Origin: a virus
Virus record (IMG/VR): IMGVR_UViG_3300033143_002503
Location: 1-29,349 of that record
Strand: one strand, 5' to 3'
Length of the DNA: 29,349 bases
This document shows, in pieces, positions 17,374-28,777 of this stretch. Below the pieces are notes generated by a model, which worked only from the letters and a program-made list of their open reading frames with translations, made no database searches and was not told the origin of the DNA. The translations under genes and the position numbers were made by a program. Each line of letters begins with the position of its first letter. Positions within the stretch are counted from its first letter, which is position 1.

Positions 17374-19043
17374 TAGTTAATATCCTCATTTGATCCTTTG
17401 GCCATTGCAACCTTAAAAGCTATCTCGCAGTAACAACGAGCCATAGCATAATGGTCGGCACCAGCAGCTAAATAGATGCCTCGCGGCTGTCCTTGGGCGT
17501 TCTTTTTATAGACTCTTACAGGTTCTTTAATGTGGTCACGATATTCTAAGTTCGTATCCATAGGGATTTTGATTGTTCCTGCCTTAAAACGACGCAGTGC
17601 AACATCGAGCCAACTTGTCTTATCAATCGAAATTGAATCTTCATCTTCCCAATCATGCTCTACAATATCACGACCAGATATCTTATCACCAGTTGTAACA
17701 CAAGTTCTAGCAATACCGCGAAATCTATTACTGAATTCCTTACTCTTACGTTGCTCGGGCTGTCGGTCAATAACTACAGAGTTAACGTCATACAGAAAAA
17801 CGTAGTCATCTATCTCTTCGAACTCATCTACTGTGAATTGTGTGAGAACTCTAGCTTCTGACATAAGATTGACATCTTTTGTCTTTGCTGCTTTCTTTGG
17901 ATCAAGTAGGTACTCAGTAATTTCAATATGGATTTTATTTCCAACGTCAATACCCATACACACGAACTGACTGGACCCAGCTCCATTAGACTTTGTGTAT
18001 CTACCAGTGCACTTTTCGATATCGTCGTCATTGATCTGAGCGCCCTTGACTACATGCGGTAATCCAAGCTTACTGTTAAAGAACTCAGTTTCATCTTCTT
18101 CAGATTGTGTCCGCCTTAGTGCAGATGTTGCAAATTCCCAAGGCTGAATCGTAAAGGAATACATCTGATTGACATGATAGCCATGGATATGACGACCCTT
18201 ATAAGCGGGCTGCCACTGAGCTTTTCCACCACGCTCGATAGGCTTGAGCCAATTGATCTTATCAAAGTGGTCTAGCGTACCTTTACACTCTTTGCATATA
18301 TAATAAGAGTCTTTGACTTTCTCGTCATAATGTGTTTCAGCAGTTATGACTAAGCAATCAGGAAAGACGAGCTCTGTGTATCTGCTGCAACATGGGCATT
18401 GGAAATAGAAATGCCGCTGATCAGATAAAAGGAACTCGCCATTAATACCAAACTTAGGTACTGTCGGGGTTGATAAGTCAAACTCAAATTTGACAAACTG
18501 ACCGGATTGTCTCTCACGACCCAGGATAAGTGACCATGGTGCCATTTCATCTACTTCGTCGAAGATCATAGTACCAGCTGGGATTGACTTAAGCTGTGAT
18601 CTACTACGTGCAGATCGTACATAGAGACTGGCCATTCCCGCTCTTTTAAGACCTAGATTCTTTGTGTCACAGAATAAGGCTGAGAGATGCGGGCTCATCT
18701 CAAGAGCGGGATCAAACCGACTAGAGCTAAAGTCAGCGGCGTCAGGCCTTTCGGTGGGTAACACATACCCAACTGACTGATGGTCTACATCAATAGTCTT
18801 AAATGCGCGGTTGATTGCTGTCTCAGTGAAAGCCATCTGGGCGGCTTTCTGACCTACCATGTGATTGGCAGTGCAATCATGCATTTCAAGGGACCAAGGA
18901 TGTAGGTCAAAACTATAGAGCATCGGTTCGCCGGTCTTTAGATTCTTGATCCAGCGATAGTTCATCGCCCAATCAGAAGCTTTAGATATAGCTGCTCGCG
19001 TCAGACCTTCATTGATCTGTTTTGCTAGACTCTCCAACAGCAT
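17373..19043 (-). CDS. terL: Terminase large subunit, lambda GpA type
   Basis: A 556-aa DNA-packaging motor. The Walker A region is GQKAAQMAFTE (residues 64-74, a divergent GpA-type P-loop), Walker B is MIFDEVDE (159-166) and STPT (191-194) is the coupling motif. A zinc-finger-like pair of CxxC motifs (216/219 and 250/253) is typical of GpA. The segment HIHGYHVNQMYSF also fits this family. The nuclease domain begins at GIDVGNKIHIEI (364-375) and ends near DHYAMARCYCE. It would cut concatemers and pump DNA through the portal encoded two genes downstream. It overlaps the small subunit by 35 bp. Confidence 0.93.
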   Translation of the reverse strand: MLLESLAKQINEGLTRAAISKASDWAMNYRWIKNLKTGEPMLYSFDLHPWSLEMHDCTANHMVGQKAAQMAFTETAINRAFKTIDVDHQSVGYVLPTERPDAADFSSSRFDPALEMSPHLSALFCDTKNLGLKRAGMASLYVRSARSRSQLKSIPAGTMIFDEVDEMAPWSLILGRERQSGQFVKFEFDLSTPTVPKFGINGEFLLSDQRHFYFQCPCCSRYTELVFPDCLVITAETHYDEKVKDSYYICKECKGTLDHFDKINWLKPIERGGKAQWQPAYKGRHIHGYHVNQMYSFTIQPWEFATSALRRTQSEEDETEFFNSKLGLPHVVKGAQINDDDIEKCTGRYTKSNGAGSSQFVCMGIDVGNKIHIEITEYLLDPKKAAKTKDVNLMSEARVLTQFTVDEFEEIDDYVFLYDVNSVVIDRQPEQRKSKEFSNRFRGIARTCVTTGDKISGRDIVEHDWEDEDSISIDKTSWLDVALRRFKAGTIKIPMDTNLEYRDHIKEPVRVYKKNAQGQPRGIYLAAGADHYAMARCYCEIAFKVAMAKGSNEDIN

Positions 19044-19554
19044 TTACAATCTCTCCGGCTATAGCTCGTTTGATATCCTCATCTGGGACATGACGAACAA
19101 TAATGTCAATTACTTTACCGGCAAAATTTGTAAGAGCGTCTTTAGACAACAGATGTCCTGTCTTCTCTTCGATACTATGACAATCCTTAACTAACTTACC
19201 AATATTATTGACCAGTGCCGCTATCTGGCCAGAATTAGTAATTAGATCGGACGCGCCTTCACACGATTCGACTGTCTCTTCAAGCGTTATACGCAATATA
19301 GCAATCTCGTCACGTAATGACATTAGGTTATCGCTATTACCTAGTTGAACAAGTCTCGCCTTGAACTTGGTCAACTTAAGATTGCGTAGTCCGTCTTTCT
19401 TAGCTTTAATAAGCACATTATGACCGCCGTGCTGAATACAGTACTGGCTGCCTGTGATAGCAACCATCATGCACTGACCGTGGGCGCTATTACCCTGACA
19501 ACGATTAGGGTCATCATGCTCTTTAACTCGTTCGAATTTATTCTCTTCATCCAT
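19009..19554 (-). CDS. Putative terminase small subunit
   Basis: A 181-aa protein directly upstream of terL, overlapping it by 35 bp. The N-terminus has a zinc-finger-like cluster (NRCQGNSAHGQC, then SQYCIQHGGHN), followed by basic helices (KAKKDGLRNLKLTKFKARL) and a coiled-coil region. Position next to terL and a Cys/His DNA-binding head fit the DNA-recognition subunit of a packaging complex. No clear ribosome site is visible before ATG 19554, and the transcript from the promoter-like element upstream would have a short leader, so translation may depend on leader structure. The family assignment rests on gene order, so another DNA-binding role is not excluded. Confidence 0.68.
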   Translation of the reverse strand: MDEENKFERVKEHDDPNRCQGNSAHGQCMMVAITGSQYCIQHGGHNVLIKAKKDGLRNLKLTKFKARLVQLGNSDNLMSLRDEIAILRITLEETVESCEGASDLITNSGQIAALVNNIGKLVKDCHSIEEKTGHLLSKDALTNFAGKVIDIIVRHVPDEDIKRAIAGEIVNAVGESSKTDQ

Positions 19555-19557
19555 GAT

Positions 19558-19662
19558 TGTATAATCGGGTCCGTTTTTAAGTACTTATAATCTCTTACTT
19601 ATAATATAGCCATTTCTCTCAGTCTACCAAATAAAATTACGAGATTTATTTTTGACGAGATC
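19558..19662 (-). promoter_or_regulatory. Late promoter-like element, copy A (before terminase)
   Basis: This 105-bp element has a second copy at 23533-23637 with 13 mismatches and no gaps. Read leftward it contains TTGGTA (19625-19630), a 16-bp spacer and TATATT (19603-19608), followed by a conserved leader with AAAAACGGACCCGAT. The two boxes are identical in both copies, while half of a 10-bp part of the spacer differs, the pattern expected of a promoter under selection. It directly precedes the terminase small subunit gene. Confidence 0.72.
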
Positions 19663-23508: not shown

Positions 23509-23532
23509 TGTAAATGCTCCGAGGTGATTGAG

Positions 23533-23637
23533 TGTACAATCGGGTCCGTTTTTGAGTGCTTATGATCTCTCACTTATAATATAGCCAATTTTAGCATTCT
23601 ACCAAATAAAATTCTGAGATTTATTTTTGACGGGATC
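23533..23637 (-). promoter_or_regulatory. Late promoter-like element, copy B (before 1099-aa gene)
   Basis: Second copy of the element described for 19558-19662, of the same length. Read leftward, TTGGTA is at 23600-23605 and TATATT at 23578-23583, again with 16 bp between them. The AAAAACGGACCCGAT leader is kept. It precedes the 1099-aa gene, whose ATG (23508) has GGAG 10 bases upstream. The pair suggests that one regulator or polymerase drives both late units. Confidence 0.7.
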
Positions 23638-23706
23638 AACGTACGTATGTTAGTGATTACTTTTGTAATCGGTAATTTAACCCACCCCTGCGTCTAGAGT
23701 CCCGCT

Positions 23707-23882
23707 ACCATCAACTGGATGCTGGATTCCTGTCTTAAATGTACACTGGCTCTGAGTATTATACCCTGAGTCTGGATTCTGGATTCCTGTTTTAAATTTA
23801 CATGATATATGAGGCAGGGGCTCTGTGACACCATCAACTGGATTCCTGTCTTAAATTTACATGATATATGAGGCAGGGGCTC
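23707..23882. repeat. Dispersed direct repeats in the non-coding tract
   Basis: A 43-bp sequence beginning GGATTCCTG and containing TTAAATTTACATGATATATG occurs at 23781-23823 and 23840-23882 with one difference. A shorter related piece (GGATTCCTGTCTTAAAT) is at 23724-23740. ACCATCAACTGGAT stands before two of the three. TCTGGATTCTGGATTCCTG (23771-23789) is a heptamer-type run of the same family as the arrays at 26.5 and 27.1 kb. No open frame here looks real. Confidence 0.75.
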
Positions 23883-23988
23883 CGGGTATATGGTAGATTT
23901 TATAAAGTCTTGACTCGATACATTTTTGTAACCCACCCTCCCTATACTAGCTACTATATCACAGCTACTTTGCAGTATAAAGACAACT

Positions 23989-24420: not shown

Positions 24421-24537
24421 CCACTAGCTTGTATATACCTTATCTTTGGAGTACTCTATCAACAGACACGCGGTTAGACTGAATAGCTTGACAGTCTCAA
24501 AGTCTGTGATCCTTGACAATATAGTTTGCGGTTATGA

Positions 24538-24587
24538 GCTACCCGGCGGAAAATGTCACTTCGCGGTGAGAAGGGCCAAACGGTAGC
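24538..24587 (+). ncRNA. Possible small structured leader RNA
   Basis: Complementary GCTACC (24538-24543) and GGTAGC (24582-24587) enclose GGC/GCC and a TCAC/GTGA hairpin, giving a compact three-helix fold on the plus strand. It lies just before the first inverted-repeat gene unit. No known riboswitch consensus is recognised. The stems are short, so chance is possible. Confidence 0.22.
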
Positions 24588-24650
24588 AAGTAGCAAGACG
24601 CTGAATATAAGACTCTAGGTTTCTTTTGAGTGTATCTATAAGGATATACC

Positions 24651-24821
24651 ATGGGCAGTAAAGATATTAAATCATATACATTGAAGTGTTGGTCATCTGA
24701 TTGTTACGGAAAACCAATTATCGATTTACGACGTACTCGAACATTTGATACTATGAAACAAGTACTCGAATACATTAGAGACATAAAACCAGATAATTAC
24801 CAAACTATCGAAAACAGCTAA
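24651..24821 (+). CDS. Unknown 56-aa protein of inverted-repeat unit 1
   Basis: A short gene with a good AAGGAT site just after the left repeat arm and ATG at 24651. The protein begins MGSKDIKSYTLKCWSS, has a strand pair (GKPIIDLRRTRTF) and a helix (TMKQVLEYIRDI), and ends NYQTIENS. The first seven codons and the leader are closely similar to the gene of unit 2 (MGNRDIN), so the two are paralogous cassettes with diverged bodies. The last seven codons with the stop are part of a 21-bp tandem duplication (24801-24842). No family is recognised. Small beta-helix proteins like this are often host-takeover or regulatory factors, but that is only a guess. Confidence 0.72.
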   Translation: MGSKDIKSYTLKCWSSDCYGKPIIDLRRTRTFDTMKQVLEYIRDIKPDNYQTIENS

Positions 24822-24842
24822 CAAACTATCGAAAACAGCTAA
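24801..24842. repeat. 21-bp exact tandem duplication at the end of the unit 1 gene
   Basis: The unit CAAACTATCGAAAACAGCTA plus A occurs twice back to back. The first copy encodes the last six residues and the stop; the second is untranslated. The duplication is in frame and looks recent because it is perfect. Confidence 0.9.
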
Positions 24843-24885
24843 CAAACATTAGATACACTCAAAAGAAACCTAGAGTCTGACAATT

Positions 24886-24930
24886 TAGGTATTACCTCTA
24901 GCATGTAACTACAACTAGAGGCAACACCTA
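24886..24930. repeat. Gene-less hairpin between units 1 and 2
   Basis: Left arm 24886-24901 (AGGTATTACCTCTAG core) and right arm 24915-24930 (CTAGAGGCAACACCT core) pair over 16 bp except for two A-C mismatches. The loop is only 13 bases. The mismatches would be U-G pairs in a minus-strand RNA. It sits exactly in the 53-bp gap between the two related gene units. It may be an emptied unit or a processing signal. Confidence 0.6.
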
Positions 24931-24969
24931 GGATTCTAGGTTCTTTTGAGTGTACCAGTGAGGTACACT

Positions 24970-25146
24970 ATGGGCAATAGAGATATTAACCGTATTCTGA
25001 AAGATCACAGCATTGTTACATTTTATGAAGGCGAAAGACTTTTCGCCCTTGAAGAGTGTTACGACGCAAACAACCGTAATATTACGGTTGTCGTGGACGT
25101 AACGAGTTACAACCTGAAAGAAGTGAGAGAATTCCTTGGATATTGA
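24970..25146 (+). CDS. Unknown 58-aa protein of inverted-repeat unit 2
   Basis: The ATG at 24970 has GAGG 8 bases upstream and lies 13 bases inside the left arm. A TTG at 24946, within the arm, could extend the frame but has no ribosome site. The protein starts MGNRDINRILKDHS and has a central acidic patch (YEGERLFALEECYD), a beta-strand (NITVVVDVTSY) and a C-terminal helix (NLKEVREFLGY). The start codon region matches the unit 1 gene at the DNA level, and the strand-then-helix end also aligns with it (IIDLRRTRTF / QVLEYI). Function unknown; it is probably a small cytosolic phage early protein. Confidence 0.75.
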   Translation: MGNRDINRILKDHSIVTFYEGERLFALEECYDANNRNITVVVDVTSYNLKEVREFLGY

Positions 25147-25147
25147 A

Positions 25148-25222
25148 ATGACTTGCAACATTGTAGCTATAGCCTTCATGGCTGTAGGCTTCATCGGTCT
25201 ATTCATTACCTTGAGAGCATGA
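25148..25222 (+). CDS. Possible 24-aa single-helix membrane peptide
   Basis: The frame begins one base after the unit 2 gene stop and encodes MTCNIVAIAFMAVGFIGLFI plus TLRA. It is almost entirely hydrophobic, a good single transmembrane helix with an arginine near the end. A weak GGA lies about 10 bases before the ATG, within the preceding gene. Tight coupling to the previous stop and retention inside the inverted repeat favour a real gene. The length is so small that chance cannot be excluded. It could modulate a membrane target of the host. Confidence 0.4.
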   Translation: MTCNIVAIAFMAVGFIGLFITLRA

Positions 25223-25358
25223 AAAAGTATAGACGATACTATCTGATAAGAACTAGCTAACAAAACATCAGGTACACTCAAAAGAACCTAGAATCGAACA
25301 GTATATTTCATTAGTGTCTATCCAATTGACTATCAACATTATCATTTGAGAGCACATT

Positions 25359-26468
25359 ATGAATATCGAAGAAACTAAAATTGTTCTGAACAAAATCCAA
25401 CTGAACCCGCTGAACCCGCGACGTATTTTCAACGAACGTGCATTGGTATCTGATATCGGTGAACGTGGCTTGGACGTCGCGCTACAGTTGCGCGGCTTCA
25501 CTGGTCGAAAGACCTTTGAAACCATGCGCGGTGACCGTCGGACAAAAGCGCTCCGGATACTCGAAAAAGAGCAGCCGGACGCTTTTGCAGAGCACTTTGC
25601 CGATGGTGTTCCATGTGTTGTGCATATGGATATCAGCGACGAAGAAGCTATCGAGATTACAAACGACCATGGGCAGAGCTTGTCTTTGTCCAATGAGTTT
25701 GAAATCTATCTGACTGTCGAGGGTTACTACCGTATGGGTCTGAGTGAGCGTCAAGCTCTAATGAAGATCCAGACGTTGCTGGACCACGTTTTGCCCATCA
25801 AGGGTAAAGCCGCTCTCAAGTTGGCTGAACTCAAAGATAGCCTTGATAAGGCTACCAAAGCGAATCGCGATGATCGGTCGAAAGCATATTTCGACCAGTA
25901 CGCTTCGGCACGTCGCGGAATCATGCAACGGTATACTCGCATACACAAGAATGCGGCTGTTGTGCGTGACGCAATGGAATACAAGTGGTTACAGGCTATG
26001 CCCGAAGGGTACGAAAACGAGCTTCCGATGCTCACTGACAAAGATCTTCAACAGTTGTCGAAGGTTTTTGTTGATGAAGCAACGGAGGGTGTTTTCGACT
26101 CTTCCGGCAAGCCTCTTATCACTCGCTCATATCCGGGCGACAGGTGGAATGAGGCTTGGAAGGACTTGATCACGTCTAAGGCGATTGACGGAAAGACTGA
26201 TGGCCCGCGCAAGAGCAAAGGCCGCAAGGAAATCCTGAAACCGTTACAAGACGGGCAGATTGAGTCGGGCATGATGGCCAATGTCATTCGCCATCACGCC
26301 GCCGACAAGGATGTTGATGCAAGTTGCATCCACAAGGCCGATCAACAGCTCGCAATTGTGCAAATCGTTCAACTCGTTGACCTTTCCCTATGGGAAAGTT
26401 GCGTCGAAATGTATGAAACGTACAAGGAAGAGCAGCGCAACAAACCGGTCGAAACTGAAACCGAGTAG
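25359..26468 (+). CDS. ParB/sulfiredoxin-fold domain protein
   Basis: A 369-aa protein with an N-terminal ParB-like nuclease/CTPase fold. Residues 12-22 (KIQLNPLNPRR) form the first box, GERGLDVALQLRGFTG (34-49) the second, RGDRRTKAL (57-65) the signature box (usually G-E-R-R or similar) and PCVVHMDISDEEAIEI (85-100) the following strand and helix. The rest (about 110-369) is helical and charged, without the KorB or Noc helix-turn-helix that I can identify. ATG 25359 has GAGAG 6 bases upstream. Phage proteins of this type may be nucleases, DNA-binding regulators or partition proteins; no ParA partner is seen. A heptamer array follows the stop. Confidence 0.78.
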   Translation: MNIEETKIVLNKIQLNPLNPRRIFNERALVSDIGERGLDVALQLRGFTGRKTFETMRGDRRTKALRILEKEQPDAFAEHFADGVPCVVHMDISDEEAIEITNDHGQSLSLSNEFEIYLTVEGYYRMGLSERQALMKIQTLLDHVLPIKGKAALKLAELKDSLDKATKANRDDRSKAYFDQYASARRGIMQRYTRIHKNAAVVRDAMEYKWLQAMPEGYENELPMLTDKDLQQLSKVFVDEATEGVFDSSGKPLITRSYPGDRWNEAWKDLITSKAIDGKTDGPRKSKGRKEILKPLQDGQIESGMMANVIRHHAADKDVDASCIHKADQQLAIVQIVQLVDLSLWESCVEMYETYKEEQRNKPVETETE

Positions 26469-26470
26469 CT

Positions 26471-26510
26471 AGACTCCAGACTCCAGACTCCAGACTCCAG
26501 ACTCCAGACT
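26471..26510. repeat. Heptamer tandem array (AGACTCC, 5.7 copies)
   Basis: The 40-bp run begins two bases after the ParB-like gene stop codon and consists of five perfect copies of AGACTCC plus AGACT. It lies within unit 3, before the right inverted-repeat arm. Related variants (AGAATCC, GGATTCT) occur at 23.7, 27.1 and 28.2-28.7 kb. Confidence 0.95.
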
Positions 26511-26544
26511 AAAGTGGGTAGACACTAATGAGATATACTGTTAA

Positions 26545-26829
26545 TTGAATCCCTGAAACCAGCGTCTAGACGGTGATATTTATGGACACATTAACAGCAA
26601 TGGGCATACTCTACGCCATGTTACATAATGGTGAACTTTTGTCTGAAAATTTGTCGAAATTGATAGTCCGCGCGCATAGTGGAAAGTTAACGTCGGCAGT
26701 CATCAAAGAAATCGACTGTAAAATGGCCAAAGAGGAAGCTTACACGAAGAAAGTAAAAGAGGCTATCGACTATGTTGATAGCCTTGAAGTTTTTAACTAA
26801 GAGGCTAGACGCTGGTTTCAGGGATTCAA
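26545..26829. repeat. Gene unit 4: 25-bp perfect inverted repeat enclosing a small gene
   Basis: Left arm 26545-26569 (TTGAATCCCTGAAACCAG, then CGTCTAG) is the exact reverse complement of right arm 26805-26829. Its sequence differs from units 1-3. The gene stop is 4 bases before the right arm. The inner ends are CTAG, and the outer ends contain GAATCC, a piece of the heptamer family. Confidence 0.92.
26582..26800 (+). CDS. Unknown 72-aa protein of inverted-repeat unit 4
   Basis: From ATG 26582 (GGTGAT 5 bases upstream; a GTG at 26573 would lie inside that site). The protein is helical, MDTLTAMGILYAMLHNGELL first, then SKLIVRAHSGKLTSAVIKEI, and a Lys/Glu-rich helix KMAKEEAYTKKVKEAIDYV. The first 20 residues are hydrophobic but broken by polar residues. 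Helical, small and charged proteins like this are common among early phage genes. No family is recognised. It is tightly packed between its inverted-repeat arms, with the stop 4 bases from the right arm. Confidence 0.72.
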   Translation: MDTLTAMGILYAMLHNGELLSENLSKLIVRAHSGKLTSAVIKEIDCKMAKEEAYTKKVKEAIDYVDSLEVFN

Positions 26830-26840
26830 AACTATGAATA

Positions 26841-26870
26841 AAGCCCGGATCAAAAGATCCGGGCTTTCTT
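26841..26870 (+). terminator. Intrinsic terminator after unit 4
   Basis: AAGCCCGGATC and GATCCGGGCTT (11 bp, perfect) with an AAAA loop, followed by TCTT. It starts 11 bases after the right arm of unit 4. The U-run is short but the stem is strong. Because the stem is symmetrical it could also act on the opposite strand. Confidence 0.85.
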
Positions 26871-26888
26871 AATGCCCATAGGAGAAAT

Positions 26889-27062: not shown

Positions 27063-27111
27063 GTGTCTAAATGCTGAGATTTTGGCCGAAAACATGCTTT
27101 TAGAGCCGGAA

Positions 27112-27230
27112 ATTCTGGGATTCTGGATTCTGGCAACTAAACCGATTGAGGCATGCTTCCATTATAAGGCAACTATTCTCCCAACCAATGCCCAGAATCC
27201 AGACTCCAGACGCTTGTATCCAGACGCCTG
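27112..27230. repeat. Opposed heptamer arrays
   Basis: A run of ATTCTGG units (27112-27133) faces a run of CCAGAATCC, AGACTCC and CCAGACGC units (27191-27230) on the other side of about 57 bp, giving TCTGGATTCTGG against its complement. The two runs could pair as a long imperfect stem. Both belong to the heptamer family found after the ParB-like gene. Confidence 0.75.
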
Positions 27231-27240
27231 TCTCTATCTT

Positions 27241-27365
27241 CTAGAAATAATCATCCAGACGCCACTAGAAATAATCACGCTAGACGTAGATGCTTGTGTC
27301 TAGAAATAGTCACCTCCTGAAAGATATAATCATGGGCTTGAATCTGGACTCTAGAATATAATCAC
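27241..27365. repeat. Five copies of a CTAGAAATAATCA-type motif
   Basis: CTAGAAATAATCATC at 27241, CTAGAAATAATCACG at 27265, CTAGAAATAGTCACC at 27300, a weak copy near 27320 (GATATAATCATGG) and CTAGAATATAATCAC at 27351. Spacing is irregular (20-35 bp). No gene is present. It could be a set of binding sites for a DNA-binding protein. Confidence 0.6.
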
Positions 27366-27890: not shown

Positions 27891-28517
27891 TTAAGGACGG
27901 TCTCCAAGGACTATACCACGCGCCAGAGCAAGGACGCCAGAAACAAGGTCAATAGGTGCTTCAGCACCTATTAACGCGGTAGCTTCGACCCTTATAGTGC
28001 GTAGTCTACGCGCAAGGGCCTCATCACCACATTCACGCCCTGCTTCGTGGAGGTGACCAATCATCAATATACCGGACTCTGCATAGCCAGAATTATACTC
28101 GTCAGCAAGCACGCAAGCAGCTCCAAGGTGCTTAAGTGTACAGTCCAAGCAGTGAGTTTTAGGGCTTGTATCAGGTGTTTCAGCGTCGTTTTGGACTCCA
28201 GAATCCATGATCTGGTCTCCTGAAATGGGTGTTCCAGCCTCAGAATCCTGAATCTTAGAGCCAGAATCCATAATCTGGTCTCCTAAATTAGTGTGATTAG
28301 GGTTGTTTTGGCCTCTAGAAAGGAATGTTTCAGCCTCAGAATCCTGAATCTTAGAGCCAGAATCCATGACCCTAGAGTCAGAATCCCGGATTTGGCCTTC
28401 AGAATCCATAAAATTAACACCAGTATTATATAGTTTGGCTCCAGAATCCCTGATCTGGCCTCCAGAATCCTGAATATCAGCCTCTATAACATCAGGTGAT
28501 TGTTCTAACATGTACAT
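27891..28517 (-). CDS. Phage protein with heptapeptide-repeat N-terminus and conserved C-terminal domain
   Basis: A 208-aa protein in two parts. Residues 15-110 are an imperfect 7-residue repeat (IQDSGGQ, IRDSGAK, FMDSEGQ, IRDSDSR, VMDSGSK, IQDSEAE, IMDSGSK, IMDSGVQ), acidic and probably disordered. Residues 122-208 form a compact domain starting HCLDCTLKHLGAACVLADEY and containing ILMIGHLHEAGRECGDEALA, the pattern of a small helical family common in phages and their hosts (C-x-x-C, then K-H-L). The repeats correspond to the heptamer DNA repeats found outside genes. The start overlaps the previous gene by 13 bp. ATG 28517 has AGGA upstream; a second ATG (28511) is possible. Function unknown. 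Confidence 0.72.
   Translation of the reverse strand: MYMLEQSPDVIEADIQDSGGQIRDSGAKLYNTGVNFMDSEGQIRDSDSRVMDSGSKIQDSEAETFLSRGQNNPNHTNLGDQIMDSGSKIQDSEAGTPISGDQIMDSGVQNDAETPDTSPKTHCLDCTLKHLGAACVLADEYNSGYAESGILMIGHLHEAGRECGDEALARRLRTIRVEATALIGAEAPIDLVSGVLALARGIVLGDRP
28201..28490. repeat. Coding heptamer-derived repeats, with a 37-bp exact direct repeat
   Basis: Within the 208-aa gene the word CAGAATCC or a variant recurs every 21 bp or multiples. One 37-bp block (CAGCCTCAGAATCCTGAATC and on) is identical at 28235-28271 and 28331-28367. A second pair, GAATCCAT(A/G)ATCTGGTCTCCT, is at 28201 and 28264. Identity at the DNA level points to recent duplication rather than old protein repeats. Confidence 0.85.
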
Positions 28518-28777
28518 TTTTCCTTGTCTTCATAGCACTCGGGGCATGTTCTTTGTGATAGCCACTCACCTTGAGCATGTGCAAGGGCCGGTTTGTTGCC
28601 ATTTAAGGCCATACAAACGACTACTGCAAGCTCTTCAGTAGGACATTTTGCATACAAAAGGTCATCATACTGTATTTTATAGCCAGAATCTAGGATCTGG
28701 CCTATAGAATCAGGTGGAATAAGTACGGAATCACTAATTCCAGGGTCAAAAACAGCTTTATTTACCTTAAATTTCAT
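28505..28777 (-). CDS. Small protein with C-terminal Cys cluster
   Basis: A 90-aa protein. The middle carries a short form of the heptamer-derived repeat (PPDSIGQILDSGYKIQ). The rest includes ECYEDKEKCTC at the C-terminus, with CPEC just before, giving four cysteines that could bind a metal or stabilise a fold. A helix-like region (TEELAVVVCMALNGNKPALA) lies before it. The gene overlaps its upstream neighbour by 4 bp (ATGA type) and its downstream neighbour by 13 bp. Function unknown. The first third (MKFKVNKAVFDPGISDS) has no recognisable motif. Confidence 0.65.
   Translation of the reverse strand: MKFKVNKAVFDPGISDSVLIPPDSIGQILDSGYKIQYDDLLYAKCPTEELAVVVCMALNGNKPALAHAQGEWLSQRTCPECYEDKEKCTC

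Follow-up and report, generated by a model that had tools for sequence, protein, structure and literature searches.

Why should successive genes of a phage each lie between the two halves of its own long inverted repeat? The question is raised by a 29,349-base IMG/VR virus record, analysed over its whole length and hereafter called the window. Its structural genes (terminase, portal and major head protein, assigned with PHROGs) lie on the minus strand, and a plus-strand gene cluster at 24.6-27.0 kb holds four units, each enclosed by a pair of arms.

Four enclosed units in the window

The initial annotation of this DNA had placed four inverted-repeat units at 24610-26829, and all arms were recovered exactly there, with 29/29, 25/25, 26/28 and 25/25 positions paired (Table 1). 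In the plus-strand RNA, both non-Watson-Crick positions of the unit 3 arms are U-G wobbles. The spacings it had given, 1 nt between units 2 and 3 and 2 nt between units 3 and 4, are likewise correct, and leave no room for a promoter or a terminator between these units; the gap between units 1 and 2 is 53 nt. As had also been claimed, the arms of units 3 and 4 are unrelated to all others, and those of units 1 and 2 are related to each other. The ribosome site follows the 5' arm by 1-4 nt in units 1 and 2 and by about 20 nt in unit 3, and that of unit 4 is weak. Start codons are situated 13-35 nt from the 5' arm in the four units, and the distance from the last stop codon to the 3' arm is about 5-50 nt.

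Table 1. Arms, ribosome sites and open reading frames (ORFs) of the four units, and the hairpin that follows them
Feature	Position	Strand	Remarks
Unit 1 5' arm, 29 nt	24610-24638	+	29/29 complement of 24850-24878
Unit 1 Shine-Dalgarno-like AAGGA	24640-24644	+	Directly after the 5' arm; from sequence
Unit 1 ORF, 56 aa	24651-24821	+	Without family match
Unit 1 3' arm, 29 nt	24850-24878	+	Perfect partner of 24610-24638
Unit 2 5' arm, 25 nt	24932-24956	+	25/25 pairing with 25271-25295; related to unit 1 arm
Unit 2 Shine-Dalgarno-like GAGG	24960-24963	+	
Unit 2 first ORF, 58 aa	24970-25146	+	Initial codons similar to those of the unit 1 ORF
Unit 2 second ORF, 24 aa	25148-25222	+	Hydrophobic
Unit 2 3' arm, 25 nt	25271-25295	+	Partner of 24932-24956
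Unit 3 5' arm, 28 nt	25297-25324	+	26 Watson-Crick and 2 U-G pairs with 26515-26542
Unit 3 ORF, 369 aa, ParB-like	25359-26468	+	Weak ParB_N match and Foldseek
Unit 3 3' arm, 28 nt	26515-26542	+	Partner of 25297-25324
Unit 4 5' arm, 25 nt	26545-26569	+	25/25 complement of 26805-26829
Unit 4 ORF, 72 aa	26582-26800	+	Without significant family match
Unit 4 3' arm, 25 nt	26805-26829	+	Partner of 26545-26569
Intrinsic-terminator-like hairpin closing the four-unit array	26834-26873	+	Inverted repeat, then TTTCTT; our reading, absent from the terminator scan list

Across the entire window, the four arm pairs are the sole inverted repeats scoring at least 15 within 3 kb. After dinucleotide shuffling, the longest perfect inverted repeat was 16 nt for the region (100 shuffles) and 17 nt for the whole window (20 shuffles). 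Moreover, eight loci (the window and related contigs) were shuffled to a total of 1.39 Mb, in which no pair had a score of at least 18 with arms more than 100 nt apart. A chance origin of the arm pairs is ruled out by these shuffles.

As the initial annotation held, every arm is matched by the partner of its own unit. When the 2.3-kb window transcript is folded without constraints, the minimum-free-energy structure includes all four helices. In the window, and also in the related phage G052 described below, the 5' arm of unit 2 is a second possible partner for the 3' arm of unit 1, so that alternative folds exist in both. A structured leader was suspected at 24505-24612; its fold was no better than those of shuffled sequences (z -0.46), and this candidate was rejected. 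No Rfam family matched the window at gathering scores, and one match in the leader was at chance level.

None of the small ORFs, those of unit 2 included, gave a significant family match. The unit 3 protein matches Pfam ParB_N below the cut-off (17.8 vs 26.3 bits). Its structure was modelled with a pLDDT of 71, and the best Foldseek matches were PadC, ParB, KorB and Noc (E 2e-4 to 7e-4), with low whole-chain TM-scores. By these matches, the product of unit 3 is predicted to have the ParB N-terminal fold.

Recurrence in related phages

Searches with the unit 3 protein, the terminase and the tail protein revealed no contig carrying the four-unit region. A search with the major head protein led to a large group of uncultivated phages, and these relatives were scanned, over entire contigs or long stretches of these, for long-range inverted repeats. 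We found 22 gene-enclosing pairs in 10 phages (the window, G025, G045, G014, G050, G062, G052, G049, L059 and L121). The finding, for which the initial annotation had suggested a search of related phages, therefore holds for a group of phages and not for a single contig alone; the layout recurs in this group with different arm sequences. In 22 of 22 units, the enclosed genes run in the operon sense. As the layout is found with exact gene boundaries in phages from different metagenomes, an assembly artefact is ruled out.

Three units abut within 0-3 nt in G045, with arms of 24, 29 and 27 nt. Two units are present in G050 and in G049, separated by 1 and 4 nt, respectively, and three in G052, which have 23-24-nt arms and gaps of 12 nt (units 1-2) and 3 nt (units 2-3). 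In G025, 27-nt arms surround a ParB-like gene, 1 nt from a 26-bp hairpin. The arrangement is nested in G014 and G062, where an outer pair surrounds an inner unit and the ParB-like gene, and L059 and L121 have one gene-enclosing pair each. Gaps of 0-4 nt between neighbouring units (G045, G050, G049, units 2-3-4 of the window and units 2-3 of G052) leave little space for promoters or terminators.

In a typical unit, the duplex ends a few nucleotides ahead of the ribosome site, and the partner strand begins just past the stop codon. Our script found a Shine-Dalgarno core in 19 units, and in 12 of these the core is no more than 10 nt away from the end of the 5' arm that faces the gene. The enclosed protein-coding RNAs span 0.2 to 1.6 kb and have their own ribosome sites. 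Arm length is 25.6 +/- 2.5 nt (18 units, G062 and L059 being left out), one of the 22 arms having 19 nt, and GC content ranges from 26 to 71%; the arms of G062 are longer and less perfect than those of other units. In whole-transcript folds run without constraints, the helices are complete or near-complete in G045, G052, G050, G014, G025, G049 and L121 and partial in G062, and the designed helix of L059 is absent from the minimum-free-energy fold. Some genes that lie outside the long-range clamps, namely in G025 after the ParB unit, carry a local hairpin immediately ahead of their ribosome site. In some contigs strong palindromes, which may be something else, flank noncoding regions.

Of the enclosed genes, the ParB-like one occurs most often, and its homologues are 12-27% identical to the protein of the window. 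The family was recognised by a profile built from nine members, so that its matches to those members are by construction; the ParB-like gene of G054 was found independently by this profile. According to the initial annotation, relatives that have the gene and lack the arms would speak against its proposal. In part this is so: two phages, G068 and G054, have a ParB-like gene and no pairing across its flanks, so that the element is not obligatory. Among the 10 phages with a recognised ParB-like gene, 8 have it surrounded by arms.

The cultivated phages used as controls, Hiyaa (first 50 kb), Vibrio phage 41E34.2, R5C (first 49 kb) and N15, contain no gene-enclosing pair; R5C and N15 have one intergenic pair each, with no gene inside. 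In the cultivated-phage collection there was neither a DNA match nor a ParB-like match to the window, similarity being limited to distant head-protein and terminase matches, and our searches turned up no cultivated phage that has the gene cluster. Species genomes yielded no relative of P0004 or of the head protein, and an alignment search with the ParB-like family found no contigs beyond those already in the set.

When the arms of the ParB-like units are compared between phages, they have no common stretch longer than 9 nt, while their place and their near-complete pairing persist. Most units within a phage also have arms unrelated to one another. Arms that lose their sequence but keep their pairing are typical of an RNA helix, and a layout kept by diverged relatives with different arm sequences agrees with this prediction. 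Units 1 and 2 of the window, and likewise units 1 and 2 of G052, have related arms that differ by substitutions and an indel, each matched in the partner arm. To the extent that a comparison of sequences allows, these matched differences support a constraint on pairing, but they could also arise by gene conversion between the inverted repeats. Mismatches read on the sense strand over all units (17 G-U vs 13 A-C) show no significant bias towards RNA pairing, and we do not use them as proof of it; with G062 and L059 excluded, a choice made afterwards, they are fewer and the ratio is steeper.

Function of the arms

Four features lead us to read the arms as an RNA element: their position relative to the ribosome site and the stop codon, the single orientation, the abutting units and the free sequence. 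Enclosure of the units at the RNA level, one part of what the initial annotation proposed, is well supported, and a function of the arms at that level is highly probable. On balance we favour the reading that the arms are mRNA elements that close each translational unit by its own duplex, and that this duplex is probably a processing site of the RNase III type. The close spacing suggests that the units are co-transcribed, in which case a single polycistronic transcript would run across all four units to the putative terminator at 26834. Both arms of each unit would pair across the gene to form a duplex of 23-29 bp, with the ribosome site just inside it and the stop codon just before the return strand, so that one closed loop per unit would result. 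As the most likely consequence, a double-strand-specific endonuclease, of the host RNase III type, would cut the duplexes, and separate mRNAs would be released with ends still clamped by the remaining base pairs, as 16S and 23S rRNA are from the pre-rRNA stalks.

Co-transcription of the units, pairing of the arms in the cell and cutting of the duplexes are what we infer. Given a function at the RNA level, cutting by an RNase III-type enzyme has a nearly even chance, and clamping or closed-loop translation in which the duplex stays uncut is possible, if doubtful. Duplexes of about 25 nt arm length are classical RNase III substrates. Their size, together with the narrow arm length and the broad GC content, would favour processing over mere stability; however, the spread of helix energy barely exceeds that of arm length, and the length argument is therefore weak. 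A search of 15 of these records for a phage RNase III gene gave none, so that the candidate enzyme would be that of the host or one encoded outside the covered contigs.

Translation in a closed loop, with no cutting at all, is one alternative. The duplex would join the ends of the unit, block exonucleases and let ribosomes restart at the adjacent site. The base of the helix is, in many units, where ribosome site and stop codon come together, both left unpaired by it, and the G025 hairpins directly ahead of ribosome sites suggest that a leader duplex matters in itself. Nevertheless, we consider this alternative rather unlikely: perfect duplexes of 23-29 bp are expected to be cleaved by host RNase III unless they are protected, and a stability clamp needs no such uniform arm length.

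Other scenarios place the function of the arms in the DNA. A gene with terminal inverted repeats has the outline of a transposable unit, and units 1 and 2 resemble duplicates, as mobile cassettes moved by a transposase acting in trans might. However, any target-site duplication is only 0-2 nt long in all 22 units; we found neither flush duplications nor conserved terminal repeats, the units abut, their genes have a single orientation, and no relation is seen between the arms of homologous ParB-like units from different phages, or between those of most units within a phage. Mobility is thus very improbable, and inversion of the segment between the repeats (phase variation) still more so. Inverted repeats of 20-30 bp do flank invertible promoters in some bacteria, but here no recombination site or core is common to the units, and instead of both orientations we found 22 of 22 segments in the orientation of expression. 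Transposon-like cassettes and invertible segments were rejected on the lack of duplications, the unrelated arms and the one orientation; the missing target-site duplications, the missing shared recombination site and the one orientation indicate an element of the mRNA rather than mobile or invertible DNA. Finally, the arms might be bound in the DNA, as operators or partition sites, for instance by the ParB-like protein, whose gene is the one most often enclosed; ParB and KorB do bind inverted-repeat sites. Against this, the units of a single phage have arms of different sequence and the half-sites are hundreds of bases apart, across a gene, so that we give this scenario hardly any credence.

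Known systems and significance

In bacterial pre-16S and pre-23S rRNA, RNase III processing stalks enclose each mature RNA. The initial annotation had likened the layout to these stalks, and part of the likeness stands: in both, a long-range duplex, perfect or nearly so, surrounds one RNA of a polycistronic transcript, and units follow each other in series. These phages do have long-range duplexes exceeding 20 bp around single units that are parts of one longer RNA, if the units are co-transcribed as their spacing suggests. The enclosed RNA, however, is not rRNA (the units hold ORFs, and the window has no Rfam match); protein-coding genes are enclosed instead, and the arm sequences are not conserved between phages. 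The pre-rRNA stalk is the nearest known principle, and it sets a precedent for the physical arrangement, an RNA unit inside a long duplex. RNase III sites in the early mRNA of phage T7 are local hairpins between genes. They resemble the present arms as double-stranded elements that punctuate a phage polycistronic message, whereas a whole gene separates the two strands in the phages described here.

Pairing between the 5' and 3' flanks of one bacterial mRNA is found in icaR of Staphylococcus aureus, where the 5' and 3' UTRs pair, the pairing is cut by RNase III, and repression comes about through a short UCCCCUG motif that lies over the Shine-Dalgarno region (PMC3868564). The phage duplexes, in contrast, are 23-29 bp long and stop before the ribosome site, which lies in the loop past the duplex in most units rather than under the 3' UTR, and several successive genes have a pair of their own. 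In Mimivirus, 3'-terminal hairpins are cut by a virus-encoded enzyme (PMC4402537), and palindromic RNA elements thus set viral mRNA ends there too; but Mimivirus is a eukaryotic virus with local hairpins at transcript ends and viral enzymes, whereas no RNase III gene was found in the present phages. The ESAS of cluster K mycobacteriophages are 17-bp inverted repeats directly upstream of translation starts, conserved by gene family (PMC3203893). They share with the present arms a place directly ahead of phage translation starts, but both ESAS halves are upstream and conserved in sequence, whereas the second half in the phage units lies past the stop codon and its sequence is free.

Stalks, icaR and ESAS thus each lack at least one defining feature in these phages, and we rate the architecture as new in kind because no tested family accommodates it. 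In the open-access literature, to which our search was confined, we found no account of such an operon, closed by duplexes gene by gene, in agreement with the initial annotation, which knew of no phage operon of this build. To our knowledge, no operon has successive genes each closed by its own long-range duplex.

In the current view, local hairpins, internal promoters and terminators are the main means by which bacterial and phage operons give their genes different fates. We propose with moderate confidence that these phages have a conserved mRNA architecture in which a long RNA duplex of its own joins the two ends of every translational unit of an operon, complementarity alone being selected, and in which the duplex sets the ends of the message and its translation. 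The arms would then be a signal of structure only, of a kind that sequence searches overlook. Such a constraint on complementarity would be testable by breaking and restoring pairs, and the arms might serve as a genetic part. If the proposal is true, co-transcribed genes would have a new route by which their mRNA ends, stability and translation are separated.

Alternative folds and local hairpins

Besides matching its own partner, the unit 2 5' arm is complementary to the 3' arm of unit 1; these two neighbouring arms lie within 24850-24956 of the window. In G052, a relative with three gene-enclosing units, the corresponding arms can form a hairpin of 23 bp, of which 19 are Watson-Crick and 4 are G-U (L156, 5509-5563). 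In both genomes, this potential pairing between neighbouring units gives an alternative local fold in competition with long-range pairing. In the relative G054, each arm of the pair around an 83-aa gene (L159, 10546-10588 and 10951-10993) is also a perfect or near-perfect local palindrome, and could therefore either fold on itself as a local hairpin or pair with the other arm across the gene. A local hairpin can also immediately precede the ribosome site of genes that lack a long-range clamp, as seen at two loci (table).

Inverted repeats around noncoding DNA

In three relatives (G016, G063 and G067), inverted-repeat pairs of 27-33 nt flank about 100-200 nt of noncoding DNA rather than a gene, and the noncoding stretch lies upstream of a gene encoding 329-402 aa. 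These pairs are possibly operators or an invertible promoter.

Local hairpins and noncoding repeat pairs in relatives
Feature	Locus	Position	Strand
Hairpin directly 5' of ribosome site, gene unclamped	L062	1736-1790	
Hairpin directly 5' of ribosome site, gene unclamped	L148	11478-11552	minus
Inverted-repeat pair, noncoding interior	L068 (G016)	18623-18843	
Inverted-repeat pair, noncoding interior	L172 (G063)	2493-2725	
Inverted-repeat pair, noncoding interior	L177 (G067)	18247-18496	

An annotated ribonuclease III gene, and other repeats of the window

Dinoroseobacter phage R5C, a cultivated phage distantly related by its head protein, carries a gene annotated as ribonuclease III (L188, 43460-44173).

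Noncoding stretches of the window (23700-23890, 26468-26510, 27100-27350 and 28190-28700) are filled with scattered copies of a short motif, CCAGAATCC/CCAGACTCC with related forms, and further copies lie within the gene at 27891-28517. The window also contains a 109-bp direct repeat (19554-19662 and 23529-23637, 87% identical), with one copy upstream of the genes in the terminase region and the other upstream of the large gene encoding 1099 aa; the repeat may represent a phage promoter region common to both sites.
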